Numbered from the stretch's first letter, positions 29,469-35,033 are shown. The stretch is DNA of 36,775 nt from Phycisphaerae bacterium (GCA_002862305.1 PKCS01000054.1:71848-108622), one strand, 5' to 3'. Notes: generated by a model from the letters alone, not told the origin. A program made the numbers and translations.

Positions 29469-29867
29469 TCACCACCCCGTCGGGGTGCCCCCTTCGCTCA
29501 CCGAGACGACCCTGAGGTCCCGGTCCCAGGAGATGGCGAAGTCCCCGGGCAGCAGGATCTCGTTGTTGTTCTCCTGGTCGGGATCGGGCACCGGCGCGCT
29601 GAGCAGTCCGGATTCGTCGAGGGTCGAGACGACGTCCTCGATGCTTCGGCCCACATCGATCGACGCACCGTGCGTCACCCAGTACATCCCCAGCTGTCCT
29701 CGAAGGATGTTCAGCTGTGAACGGGCGGAGGTCCGCTCTGCATCGCCCGTCGCATTGGTGAACTGCGGGATCACGATGCTCGAGAGCAGGCCGAGGATGA
29801 CCACCACGATGAGGATCTCGATCAGGGTGAATCCGCGTCCAGGGGCGGTTGTTTCGAATGGTTCCAT
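29469..29867 (-). CDS. GspG-like major pseudopilin, copy 2
   Basis: 132 residues with GRG-FTLIEILIVVVILGLLSS at the N-terminus, Glu at +5, then IVIPQFTNATGDAERTSARS. It is a close paralogue of the next upstream pilin, sharing RGFTLIEILIVVVILG and the IVIPQFTNA segment. The C-terminal domain is short and ends ...GTPTGW. A GTG one codon earlier is an alternative start. It is separated from copy 1 by 267 bases that hold a strong hairpin (30071-30109) and a smaller repeat (29934-29961). Confidence 0.85.
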   Translation of the reverse strand: MEPFETTAPGRGFTLIEILIVVVILGLLSSIVIPQFTNATGDAERTSARSQLNILRGQLGMYWVTHGASIDVGRSIEDVVSTLDESGLLSAPVPDPDQENNNEILLPGDFAISWDRDLRVVSVSEGGTPTGW

Positions 29868-30070
29868 CACTCACTGTCTCCATGGGGCCCGGGGAGGGGG
29901 AGATGACCCTGGCGCACTCCCGTGTGGCGAGCGGATGTCCTGGCACATCCAGTCGGACATCGGGTTCGATGCCGTTTGCAAGGTGCGGTCCGGCCCCCGG
30001 CCGGGCAAGCCGGCGATGGTGTTTGTTCGAAAACCGGATGACCCGGGACGGGTGATACCGGTGGCGCAGG

Positions 30071-30134: not shown

Positions 30135-30536
30135 TCACCAAGGCATCACTCCCGAGCTGTCGGCCTCGTCGCAGGTGTCGCAGGTGATGACCAGGCGACC
30201 GTTCACCACGCCCCACTCGTAGGGATCCTGGAGCAGCGGGGCGAAGTTGCCGGAATCGTCCGTGGACTCGGGCACGTATTCCGGCATCAATGCGTCGAAC
30301 AGTTCGCTGTAGTCGGAAACGTCATCACCGCCCGGAAGGGTGCTGTTCTGGGCCCGATAGAGCTGGCACTGGCTGCGCATCGACTGCAACTGGGTGCGGG
30401 CCTGGCTCTCGGCCGCCTCGCTCGCGGCGTTGGTGAACTGGGGAATGACGATGGAGGCGAGGATGCCGAGGATGACGACGACGATCAGGATCTCGATGAG
30501 GGTGAATCCCCGGTTGTGCCTGGTGGATGTACGCAT
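30135..30536 (-). CDS. GspG-like major pseudopilin, copy 1
   Basis: 133 residues: RHNRG-FTLIEILIVVVILGILAS, then IVIPQFTNAASEAAESQART. The signal (Gly before Phe, Glu at +5) is recognised and methylated by a prepilin peptidase, not encoded here. The C-terminal domain has a Cys pair (VITCDTCDEAD) likely to form a disulfide and ends VMPW. AAGGAA lies eight bases before the ATG. It is the first pilin of the cluster and, with the hairpin behind it, perhaps the most abundant subunit. Confidence 0.87.
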   Translation of the reverse strand: MRTSTRHNRGFTLIEILIVVVILGILASIVIPQFTNAASEAAESQARTQLQSMRSQCQLYRAQNSTLPGGDDVSDYSELFDALMPEYVPESTDDSGNFAPLLQDPYEWGVVNGRLVITCDTCDEADSSGVMPW

Positions 30537-31250: not shown

Positions 31251-31453
31251 CTGGAGTACCTCGGGGTCGGGTCGGCCCCCATGGCCGACGGACCGTACTT
31301 GTCGGATGATCAAAAGGGCGGTTTGAGTGATTTGGCCCATTTGGTTCGATTTTTCAGGTCCCAGAGCCCGTGGCCGGCGGGATACCGCGGGAAATGCCAC
31401 CCTCCCCCCCACTTGGGTACCATGGGACGATCGAACCCAGAAGGTCGTACCCC

Positions 31454-32674
31454 ATGATCAACATCCACCCATTCGCCGCGGAACGGCCACGGAGCGAGGA
31501 CGCCGACCGAATCGCGTCGGTGCCCTACGACGTGGTCTCGACCGCGGAGGCTCGGGATCTCGCCGCGGGGGAGCCCGACTCGTTCCTTCGGGTGATACGG
31601 CCCGAGATCGAGCTCGGGGAGGATGTCGACCCGTATTCCGATGCGGTGTATCGACAAGGACGGATGAACCTCGATCGATTCCGTGAACGAGGCCTGCTGG
31701 TCGAGGACGAACAGCCCGGCGTCTACCTGTACAGGCTGGGCTGGCGTGGCACGACCCAGACCGGGATCGTGTGTTGCTGCGATGCCGCCCAGTACCGATC
31801 CGGACTCATCAAGAAGCACGAATTCACGCGACCGGAGAAGGAGGACGACCGGACCCGGCACCTGATGGCCTCCCGGGCGCACGCGGAACCCATCTTCCTC
31901 GCCTTCCACGACGACCCCGGGATCGCTTCATTGGTCGCGGGGGACACCGGGCGGGATCCGGACTGCGCCTTCACCGCGGTGGACGGGGTCCGGCATGAAT
32001 GCTGGAGGGTCGGGGATCCGGATCGATACGTGGAGGCCTTCGCCGGGCTGGACTCGATGTACATCGCGGATGGTCACCATCGGTCGGCGGCCGCGGCCAG
32101 GGCCGCTGAGGAATGCATGAGGGGGAATGCGGGTCACGACGGGAACGAGGAATACAACCGCATCCTCGCGGTCTGCTTCCCCGCCGGTGACCTGAACATC
32201 CTCCCCTACAACCGGGTCGTCCGGGACCGTGCGGGGCTCGAACCTGAAGGACTGATCGACCGGATTCGGGACATCGGGACCGTGTCCCCGGCGGAGGACG
32301 GCACCCCGGACTCACGGGGTGAATTCCGGATGTGGGTCGGGGACTCGTGGCATTCGGTGGTGATCGACGACTCGAGGATCGACCACGAGGACCCCGTGGA
32401 ATCACTCGACTGCGCCCTGCTGCAGTCCCTCGTCCTGGATCCCATCCTCGGGATCGAGGATCCGAGGACCGACCGGAGAATCGAGTTCGTCGGCGGGATA
32501 CGATCACTCGAGGAGCTCGTTGAACGGGCAGGCACGGATGGCGTTGCCTTCTCGATGCACCCGACCTCCATGGAGGAACTCCTCTCGGTGGCGGACAGCG
32601 GGCGGACCATGCCCCCCAAGTCGACATGGTTCGAGCCGAAACTCAGAAGCGGACTCTTCGTCCACAGATTTTGA
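31454..32674 (+). CDS. DUF1015 family protein in the serine operon
   Basis: 406 residues, the usual DUF1015 length. Begins MINIHPFAAERPRSEDADRI with VPYDVVSTAEARDLA, a typical family opening; later LIKKHEFTRPEKEDDRTRHL, the strongly conserved MYIADGHHRSAAAARAA (Asp206-Gly-His-His-Arg210), NRILAVCFPAGDLNILPYNRV, and a C-terminal LDPILGIEDPRTDRRIEFVGG. DGHHR is also a hallmark of some ParB-like proteins, and serine kinases SbnI and SerK use a ParB-like fold. The gene is followed after 8 bases by serA and then serC. No biochemical role is established to my knowledge; a part in serine or phosphoserine metabolism is inferred from context. AGAAGG lies ten bases upstream of the ATG. Confidence 0.87.
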   Translation: MINIHPFAAERPRSEDADRIASVPYDVVSTAEARDLAAGEPDSFLRVIRPEIELGEDVDPYSDAVYRQGRMNLDRFRERGLLVEDEQPGVYLYRLGWRGTTQTGIVCCCDAAQYRSGLIKKHEFTRPEKEDDRTRHLMASRAHAEPIFLAFHDDPGIASLVAGDTGRDPDCAFTAVDGVRHECWRVGDPDRYVEAFAGLDSMYIADGHHRSAAAARAAEECMRGNAGHDGNEEYNRILAVCFPAGDLNILPYNRVVRDRAGLEPEGLIDRIRDIGTVSPAEDGTPDSRGEFRMWVGDSWHSVVIDDSRIDHEDPVESLDCALLQSLVLDPILGIEDPRTDRRIEFVGGIRSLEELVERAGTDGVAFSMHPTSMEELLSVADSGRTMPPKSTWFEPKLRSGLFVHRF

Positions 32675-32682
32675 AGGACCCC

Positions 32683-33906
32683 ATGCGAATACTCATTGCA
32701 GACAAGTTCGAGTCACTTGGACTGGAAGCCCTCGAGAGCAGGAAGTTCGAGGTGATCCTGGAGCCCGAGCTGGACGCCGGAAGCCTGCCCGCACGGCAGG
32801 CGGAGCTCGGTGCGCAGGTCATCGTGGTCCGATCGACCAAGGTCAGCGCCGCCTGCATCGAGGCCTCGCAGGACCTCGCTCTGGTGGTCCGGGCGGGTGC
32901 CGGTTACGACAACATCGACCTGCCCGCGGCAAGCTCGCACGGGGTCTTCGTGGCCAACTGCCCGGGCAAGAACTCGCTGGCGGTGGCCGAACTCGCCTGG
33001 GGCCTGATCATCGCCTGCGACCGGCGCATACCGGACCAGGTCGTCGACCTCAGGAATGGCGACTGGAACAAGAAGGAGTTCTCGCAGGCATCGGGTCTGG
33101 CGGGACGCACCCTCGGCATCCTCGGCGCCGGCCGCATTGGTCGGGCGATGATCGACCGGGCCAAGGCGTTCGGCATGGAGGTCGCGGTCTGGGACAGGTT
33201 CCTCGATGAGGAGATGGCGTACGATCTCGGGGTCACCCAGTGCAAGAACCTGATCAACCTCGCCAAGATGAGCCACGTGATCTCGATCCACGTGGCCGCG
33301 GTCGAGGAGACCCGGTATCTCATCAACGACAAGTTCGTGGACGCGATGCGACCGGGATCGATCCTGGTGAACACCAGCCGCGGGTCGATCGTCGACGAGG
33401 ACGCACTCAGGAAGGGCATCCGGGAGAAGGGCATCCGGGCCGGACTCGACGTGTTCGCGGACGAACCCTCGGGCGGCAAGGGTGAATTCAGCTCCGGCAT
33501 CGTCGGGGAGCCCGGAGTCTACGGCACCCACCACGTGGGCGCCTCGACCAAGCAGGCCCAGGAATCGACCGCCATGGAAGCGGTCCGGATCATCAGCTCC
33601 TATCGCGACACGGGTGACGTCCCGAACTGCGTGAACAAGTCCAGCGCCAGTCGTGGGGCGGCCCTGCTGACGGTCCGCCACCTGAACCAGCCCGGGGTGC
33701 TGGCCAAGGTGTTCGACATCCTGAGCCGTTCCGCGGTGAACGTGGAGGAGATGGAGAACCTCATATACGAGGGCGGCAAATCCGCATGCGCGCGCATCCA
33801 GGTGGGCAAGTCACCCTCCATGAACGACATCGAGGCCATCGAGAGCGAGCACGCGGTGCTCGGGATCTCGGTGTCCAGCATGGACTCAGGCAAGGAGCAG
33901 CTGTGA
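32683..33906 (+). CDS. serA: D-3-phosphoglycerate dehydrogenase
   Basis: First enzyme of phosphorylated serine synthesis. 407 residues: substrate domain with VVRAGAGYDNID, NAD-binding LGILGAGRIGRAMIDRAKAF, catalytic Arg in NTSRGSIVDE and His in YGTHHVGAST, then a C-terminal ACT domain (LLTVRHLNQPGVLAKVFDIL) that usually confers serine feedback inhibition. The ACT domain follows directly, without the extra ASB domain of long forms. AAGGA precedes the ATG 32683 by a few bases. It overlaps serC by GTGA. Confidence 0.96.
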   Translation: MRILIADKFESLGLEALESRKFEVILEPELDAGSLPARQAELGAQVIVVRSTKVSAACIEASQDLALVVRAGAGYDNIDLPAASSHGVFVANCPGKNSLAVAELAWGLIIACDRRIPDQVVDLRNGDWNKKEFSQASGLAGRTLGILGAGRIGRAMIDRAKAFGMEVAVWDRFLDEEMAYDLGVTQCKNLINLAKMSHVISIHVAAVEETRYLINDKFVDAMRPGSILVNTSRGSIVDEDALRKGIREKGIRAGLDVFADEPSGGKGEFSSGIVGEPGVYGTHHVGASTKQAQESTAMEAVRIISSYRDTGDVPNCVNKSSASRGAALLTVRHLNQPGVLAKVFDILSRSAVNVEEMENLIYEGGKSACARIQVGKSPSMNDIEAIESEHAVLGISVSSMDSGKEQL

Positions 33907-35033
33907 GCCAGACCCAATCAGCCAACGACGCGGTCGACACCCTGTCGAACACCGAACGAACCTACAACTTCTCCGCCGGCCCCGCGGTCCTCCCGGAAGA
34001 GGTGCTTCGACAGGCCCAACGAGACCTCTGGGACATCGACGGGACCGGCATCGGGGTGCTCGAGCACAGCCACCGCGACGCGACCATCGACCGGGTCTTC
34101 GAGGAGGCGGAGAAGGGCTGTCGCGAGCTCGCGGGGATCGGGGACGACCACGCGGTCCTGTTCCTGAGCGGCGGTGCCTGCCAGCAGTTCGCGATGCTGG
34201 CCATGAACTTCCTGACTCCGGGACGGACGGGCGACTACCTGGTCACGGGGAACTGGGCCAGGACCGCTCGATCCTACGCCGACTCCTATGGAAGCACCCA
34301 TGCCGCCTACGACGGGACGGATTGCGTCTTCGACCACGTACCCGCCCCGGAGGAGATCAGCTACTCGGACGACCCGGTATACGTCCACTACTGCAGCAAC
34401 AACACCATCTACGGGACCAGCTACGCCGAACCCCCGCGGACGGAGGCGCCCCTCATCGCGGACATGAGTTCGGAGATGTTCTCCCGACCGTGGGACTACT
34501 CGGCGCATGCGATGACCTATGCCTGCGCCCAGAAGAACCTGGGACCAGCCGGGGGTTCGTGCGTGATCATCTCCCGGGAACTGCTTGAACGAACGAACCA
34601 GGGCCTGCCCAAGATCTTCCGGTACGAGGACCACGTCGCCAAGGGATCGCGGCTCAACACCCCCCCCGTGTTCACCGTCTACATGATGGGCCTCGCCTTC
34701 CGCTGGATCAGCGAACAGGGCGGGGTCGACCAGATGGCGAGCAGGAACCGCGAGAAGGCCGGCCTGATCTACGATGCGATCGACGGCTCCGGCGGGTTCT
34801 GGATCCCTCACGCCCGGGAGGATTCGAGGTCGATGATGAACATCAACTTCAGGACCACCGATCCGGAACTCGACAAGCGGTTCATACAGGAAGCCCACCA
34901 GCACGGGATGAGCGCCCTGAAGGGACACCGCAGCGTGGGTGGAATGCGCGCTTCGGTGTACAACGCGTTCCCGAGGCAGGGATGCGTGCAGCTGGCCGAG
35001 ATGATGCGGGAGTTCGCGCGGACCAACGGCTGA
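33903..35033 (+). CDS. serC: Phosphoserine aminotransferase
   Basis: Second step of serine synthesis, 3-phosphohydroxypyruvate to phosphoserine, PLP-dependent. 376 residues: TYNFSAGPAVLPEEVLRQAQ, GIGVLEHSHRD, LFLSGGACQQFAMLAMNFL, ADMSSEMFSRPWD, and the PLP lysine in YACAQKNLGPAGG (Lys211). GTG 33903 is chosen because AAGGAG (33892-33897) lies five bases before it and the GTGA overlap with the serA stop is intact. No serB phosphatase is in the window. Its TGA abuts, without a gap, the TGA of the opposing DUF1579 gene (shared TGATCA). Confidence 0.96.
   Translation: MSQTQSANDAVDTLSNTERTYNFSAGPAVLPEEVLRQAQRDLWDIDGTGIGVLEHSHRDATIDRVFEEAEKGCRELAGIGDDHAVLFLSGGACQQFAMLAMNFLTPGRTGDYLVTGNWARTARSYADSYGSTHAAYDGTDCVFDHVPAPEEISYSDDPVYVHYCSNNTIYGTSYAEPPRTEAPLIADMSSEMFSRPWDYSAHAMTYACAQKNLGPAGGSCVIISRELLERTNQGLPKIFRYEDHVAKGSRLNTPPVFTVYMMGLAFRWISEQGGVDQMASRNREKAGLIYDAIDGSGGFWIPHAREDSRSMMNINFRTTDPELDKRFIQEAHQHGMSALKGHRSVGGMRASVYNAFPRQGCVQLAEMMREFARTNG

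Follow-up and report, generated by a model that had tools for sequence, protein, structure and literature searches.

A three-gene operon of DUF1015, serA and serC

A stretch of 36,775 nucleotides from Phycisphaerae bacterium (GCA_002862305.1, PKCS01000054.1:71848-108622), hereafter called the window, carries a gene for a DUF1015 (PF06245) protein immediately upstream of serA and serC. We analysed the fold, the conserved motifs and the genomic context of this DUF1015 protein and weighed its probable place in serine metabolism. The operon is made up of the following features.

31439-31444, plus strand: predicted ribosome-binding site of the DUF1015 gene, AGAAGG
31454-32674, plus strand: DUF1015 (PF06245) gene of the type-I subfamily, first gene of the operon, 406 amino acids, ATG start
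32673-32678, plus strand: predicted ribosome-binding site of serA, GAAGGA, overlapping the DUF1015 stop codon
32683-33906, plus strand: serA, 3-phosphoglycerate dehydrogenase, 407 amino acids, containing 2-Hacid_dh domains and, at the C-terminus, an ACT stretch (residues 329-376)
33892-33897, plus strand: predicted ribosome-binding site of serC, AAGGAG
33903-35033, plus strand: serC, phosphoserine aminotransferase, 376 amino acids, GTG start, matching NF003764 with 432 bits (cut-off 253)

An earlier note on this DNA had described the three genes as a packed operon, and all of its coordinates were correct. The genes are tightly spaced and run in the same direction. The DUF1015 gene is separated from serA by 8 bases (32675-32682), the serA stop codon and the serC start codon overlap in the sequence GTGA, and each gene has its own Shine-Dalgarno-like site. 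Because the flanking genes on either side are on the minus strand, the operon consists of these three genes. The host genome is 2.67 Mb in size and 96.6% complete, and the same gene order was also present at a named Phycisphaeraceae locus. The DUF1015 protein matched PF06245 with 296.8 bits (cut-off 25.8; E = 2e-88) over model positions 1-324 of 325, and the type-I model with 522 bits; a scan of NCBIfam returned no model for it. In a tree the protein clustered with those of Planctomycetota.

A kinase-like fold and its conserved motifs

An AlphaFold2 model of the DUF1015 protein, built from 64 sequences, reached a predicted local distance difference test score (pLDDT) of 95.7 and a predicted template modelling score of 0.92. 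When the model was compared with the PDB by Foldseek, nine matches had E values below 1e-3, all of them to the free-serine kinases SbnI or SerK (4e-8 to 6e-6); the E value of the tenth match was only 0.2. A second structural aligner gave Z scores of 11.8-13.0 over 211-222 residues for SerK and SbnI, sulfiredoxin being the next family with a Z score of 4.8. The structural match extends from about residue 90 to residue 406, and the two-domain ParB-like fold of SerK and SbnI is present in the model. Thus, as modelled, the DUF1015 protein has the SerK/SbnI fold. The earlier note had raised the idea of a fold like that of the ParB-fold serine kinases, and structure prediction followed by a fold search supported this fold, as SerK and SbnI were the sole significant matches. 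Searches of the PDB with phmmer and with a profile found no sequence relative, so that this kinship is revealed by structure alone.

The closest match was SerK, the ADP-dependent free-serine kinase of Thermococcus kodakarensis (PDB 5x0b, 5x0e and 5x0g; 1vk1 from Pyrococcus), whose structure is alike across some 220 residues (Z 13.0, root-mean-square deviation 5.1) at about 16% identity. SbnI, the staphylococcal free-serine kinase of staphyloferrin B synthesis (PDB 5uje, 5ujd and 6nr6), is similarly related (Z 12.7, root-mean-square deviation 3.8, about 13% identity), although its gene belongs to a siderophore cluster rather than a serine operon. Whereas SerK and SbnI have a compact architecture of about 240 residues without further domains, the DUF1015 protein has 406 residues, with an additional N-terminal domain of about 90 residues and, compared with SerK, some 45 residues inserted ahead of the DGHHR motif. 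Because of its length and its additional domain we regard DUF1015 as a sister branch of SerK and SbnI and not as SerK itself. The N-terminal domain modelled alone (pLDDT 94.5) gave no PDB match with E < 1e-3. The parts of the protein that bear on this comparison are as follows.

31454-31723, plus strand: additional N-terminal domain, residues 1 to about 90, absent from SerK and SbnI
31523-31534, plus strand: conserved PYDV motif in the N-terminal domain, residues 24-27
31811-31822, plus strand: KKHE motif, residues 120-123, in which Glu123 is the counterpart of SerK Glu30 by profile alignment
32069-32083, plus strand: DGHHR motif, residues 206-210, corresponding to DGHHR 69-73 of SerK (ParB box II, or phosphate motif)
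32612-32626, plus strand: PPKST motif, residues 387-391, corresponding to SPKTT of SerK by profile alignment

The DGHHR motif had already been pointed out by the earlier note, and its position was confirmed. An unconstrained profile comparison with SerK, for which a Pyrococcus sequence identical to 1vk1_A and a Thermococcus sequence served as references, yielded three collinear segments that pair KKHE with KPHE30, IADGHHR with IVDGHHR, and MPPKST with YSPKTT. The HE segment matched weakly. The C-terminal segment containing PK[ST]T, a part that DUF1015 has in common with SerK, covered 52 columns at 25% identity, and the core alignment with the insertion before DGHHR removed covered 60 columns at 27% identity with a probability of 90%. 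Residues H122, E123, D206 to R210, P388, K389 and T391 are invariant across the 64 relatives, and within PK[ST]T all positions are fixed except the one occupied by Ser or Thr. Glu30 is taken as the catalytic residue of SerK on the basis of the E30A and E30Q structures, as judged from their titles, and of earlier work on SerK. Since DUF1015 shares this Glu and the other motifs with SerK, serine or phosphoserine is the likely substrate.

More than 40 positions, the catalytic Glu among them, are invariant in the 64 relatives, which argues that DUF1015 is an enzyme rather than a regulator. The earlier note had left both possibilities open; the enzyme found support and the regulator did not. A non-catalytic protein that binds serine or phosphoserine and regulates or scaffolds SerA and SerC, as SbnI does in part, would have precedent in the molecule name of 6nr6, where SbnI is called a bifunctional regulator and kinase, and in the frequent action of ParB folds as switches (PMC12704722). 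However, the invariant residues speak against such a role, and DUF1015 genes adjoin two kinds of aminotransferase gene, encoding SerC or, in Clostridium, a class-V enzyme. Moreover, no DNA-binding domain was found in the Pfam scan or in the model. We therefore consider a purely regulatory function very improbable. With the ParB-CTPase fold proteins ParB, Noc and sulfiredoxin, DUF1015 shares the core fold and a phosphate motif of the box-II type; sulfiredoxin is a far weaker structural match than SerK. A ParB chromosome-partitioning protein was ruled out because the Pfam scan found no helix-turn-helix or dimer domain and the neighbours are ser genes.

Linkage of DUF1015 to serA and serC across phyla

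When named genomes were scanned with an alignment of mixed DUF1015 sequences, 80 loci were identified, many of them on short contigs. SerA was encoded within 8 kb of DUF1015 in 39 of these loci and SerC in 27. A 2-Hacid_dh gene was immediately upstream of DUF1015 in 29 of 72 loci and immediately downstream in 5 of 72, and of 38 selected genes two positions away from DUF1015, 23 had Aminotran_5. The linkage was seen in no fewer than seven phyla and in several gene orders: DUF1015-serA-serC in Planctomycetota, Acidobacteriota, Chloroflexota and Gemmatimonadota; serC-serA-DUF1015 in Bacteroidota, Lachnospiraceae and Enterococcus; class-V aminotransferase-serA-DUF1015 in Clostridium; serC-DUF1015 in Chitinophagaceae; and serA-DUF1015 at one Elusimicrobiota locus.

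Proximity was counted in samples of Clostridia and Planctomycetota drawn regardless of neighbours. When type-I DUF1015 and serC were both present, serC was on the same strand within 5 kb in 18 of 22 Clostridia genomes and 12 of 19 Planctomycetota genomes, against a roughly estimated chance expectation of about 0.4% per genome. The association of type-I DUF1015 with serA and serC is thus far from chance. The earlier note's remark on such neighbourhoods in clostridia was correct, even too modest, and the gene-neighbour comparison that it had proposed revealed a strong excess of ser genes beside DUF1015 across phyla.

A second, distant subfamily, type II, is about 25% identical to type I and has the same motifs (for example at loci L125, L132, L134 and L136). 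This subfamily is tied to ser genes only loosely. It was found near ser genes at 4 of the 20 loci from Clostridia, where it was invariably on the opposite strand and convergent to a serC-serA pair, and in 2 of 36 planctomycete genomes.

COG4198 corresponds to the DUF1015 family. A glycine riboswitch upstream of COG4198 was reported in Firmicutes metagenome fragments (PMC2211319). No glycine riboswitch was found in 12 type-I DUF1015 loci or in 14 type-II Clostridia loci, and a search across the window found no riboswitch. At one locus (L064, 1979-2075, plus strand) a tetrahydrofolate riboswitch (85.5 bits) follows a DUF1015 gene at a distance of about 120 bases.

DUF1015 and the last step of serine synthesis

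The earlier note had also remarked that serB was missing. No SerB-family protein was found in the genome of the window, in a search that did not include non-HAD phosphatases (PF00300). The top match to the SerB model was a Cof-type phosphatase, and the remaining HAD proteins were similar to Gph, PhnX or beta-PGM or had no NCBIfam match. Pfam and NCBIfam scans found no HAD domain in the DUF1015 protein; this and its SerK-type fold rule out membership of the SerB family.

SerA and SerC already make Sep (O-phosphoserine), SerB was not found and SerA has an ACT stretch, which would fit feedback-controlled serine synthesis. On these grounds, together with the fold and the motifs, we favour a model in which DUF1015 replaces SerB in the window operon and converts Sep to serine; we put its probability at about one in two. 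SerA and SerC would produce Sep from 3-phosphoglycerate, and the DGHHR loop of DUF1015 would hold the Sep phosphate. Glu123, whose SerK counterpart Glu30 is the general base in the kinase direction, would then act as an acid and protonate the leaving serine oxygen, and the phosphate would be handed to water or to another acceptor. Phosphoserine is a low-energy ester, at about -10 to -13 kJ/mol versus about -31 for ATP. Plain reversal of an ATP kinase, with formation of ATP from Sep, was judged energetically unlikely for this reason. Because that reaction is uphill, a DUF1015 protein that makes serine should be a hydrolase or use another acceptor. Such an enzyme would perform the same reaction as the HAD phosphoserine phosphatase SerB with an unrelated fold, and would be its non-orthologous replacement.

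In related genomes the corresponding position, next to SerA or joined to it, is taken by SerB. Within the family to which the window belongs, genomes G000 and G194 carry DUF1015-serA-serC, with serA of G194 deduced from the 1.4 kb that separate DUF1015 from serC, and no SerB was found in them. Two others without type-I DUF1015, G150 and G171, instead encode a protein of 635-646 amino acids in which a SerB-type HAD (DFDST) is fused to SerA and ACT.

L140, 369-2306, minus strand, and L141, 1510-3414, plus strand: SerB-SerA-ACT fusion genes of G150 and G171

A similar SerB-SerA-ACT protein is encoded in a Bacteroidia genome (L148). In two Bacteroidia loci without DUF1015 (L146, 1095-2411, plus strand; L147, 380-1678, minus strand), a SerB-type HAD precedes the ACT-containing C-terminus of SerA, and no SerA NAD-binding domain was detected in either protein. 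It is possible that these are regulated SerB proteins derived from a SerB-SerA fusion.

In named genomes canonical SerB was present in 1 of 50 with type-I DUF1015 (Bacteroides oleiciplenus) versus 7 of 14 controls. Among 195 Planctomycetota, a SerB-like HAD of at least 60 bits was found in 1 of 22 type-I genomes versus 74 of 173 others (Fisher p = 2e-4). When only SerC-positive Planctomycetota were considered and both DUF1015 types were pooled, the numbers were 5 of 57 with DUF1015 versus 7 of 15 without (p = 0.002). None of these statistics takes account of relatedness among the genomes. In six planctomycete genomes of genus g55 (G036, G052, G119, G139, G144 and G172) SerC was present, but no DUF1015 and no SerB-like HAD of at least 60 bits was found; this genus may have a further phosphoserine phosphatase.

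Several observations weigh against conversion of Sep to serine by DUF1015. Within SerC-positive Planctomycetota the contrast for type I was weaker (p = 0.11), and it was clear solely when the two types were pooled. Canonical SerB occurs alongside strong type-I DUF1015 in four Bacteroidia genomes, and many Bacteroidia with DUF1015 have a SerB-like HAD that scores below the threshold, in at least some cases fused to SerA. Although 114 of 196 Clostridia genomes have SerC, none was found to have canonical SerB, and 61 of the 114 have neither DUF1015 type. In Clostridia, weak SerB-like HADs were commoner with type I (13 of 44) than without it (14 of 152; p = 0.002). Finally, the characterised relatives SerK and SbnI run in the opposite direction, from serine to Sep, and serK of the Desulfurococcales, which adjoins genes for a 3-phosphoglycerate dehydrogenase and an aminotransferase, has been read as serving serine assimilation (PMC5120207). 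Strict mutual exclusion of SerB and DUF1015 was rejected by the Bacteroidia and Clostridia counts; the two complement each other in places without excluding each other.

The 61 SerC-positive Clostridia indicate that other solutions for the last step exist. They would fit a DUF1015 protein that catalyses a neighbouring step, acting on another amino-alcohol phosphate or passing the Sep phosphate to an alcohol such as homoserine; the true phosphoserine phosphatase would then be encoded elsewhere in the genome, as a HAD or histidine phosphatase that has escaped recognition. The coexistence of DUF1015 and SerB in B. oleiciplenus also fits. This explanation is improbable, as it leaves the link to serA and serC over many phyla and gene orders unaccounted for.

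The direction of SerK and SbnI raises the alternative that DUF1015 is a free-serine kinase that forms phosphoserine from serine and ADP or ATP. SerC and SerA would then run backwards and assimilate serine to 3-phosphoglycerate, or Sep would be supplied for cysteine, and SerB would be missing since it would create a futile cycle. The fold and the catalytic Glu shared with SerK, the archaeal gene neighbourhood and the energetically easy direction from serine to Sep all agree with such a kinase. However, a supplier of Sep would be redundant beside SerA and SerC, and the SerA of the window bears an ACT stretch like those of feedback-regulated synthetic enzymes. In addition, DUF1015 occurs in 168 of 187 Bacteroidia genomes and is likewise very common in planctomycetes, so not only in amino-acid fermenters, and the SerB-SerA fusion takes its place in genomes of the window's own family. 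We consider the kinase less likely than the conversion of Sep to serine and more likely than the other alternatives.

Elsewhere in the window, two adjacent open reading frames on the minus strand (30135-30536 and 29469-29870) start with GFTLIEILIVVVILG(I/L)L, which is typical of type IV pilin or pseudopilin signals.

A survey from 2025 lists DUF1015 as one of the ParB-fold fusions (PMC12704722). A gap at SerB has also been described: 450 gut genomes have SerA and SerC without SerB (PMC9026213), the same gap is present in Roseburia (PMC7478625), and C. perfringens and E. faecalis were named as unexplained for the last step (PMC7311316). A Roseburia locus in our set (L115) has the order serC-serA-DUF1015. 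The literature searched, which left subscription journals outside its scope, contained no paper linking DUF1015 to serine, and none of the papers mentioning DUF1015 was, by title and abstract, about its function.

DUF1015, which is present in most Bacteroidia and in many of the Clostridia and planctomycetes sampled, can now be assigned a testable activity and a likely catalytic residue. Somewhat more tentatively than for the window operon, we propose that DUF1015 may represent a class of non-HAD phosphoserine phosphatases or Sep phosphotransferases on the ParB/SerK kinase fold, which would complete serine synthesis in many SerB-less Bacteroidota, Bacillota, Planctomycetota and further bacteria, among them a part of the 450 gap genomes. 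If Sep is converted to serine, a kinase fold would have been turned into a biosynthetic phosphatase; if the reaction runs from serine to Sep, bacteria would possess free-serine kinases much more commonly than is currently recognised. In either case, predictions of auxotrophy in gut bacteria would be corrected.

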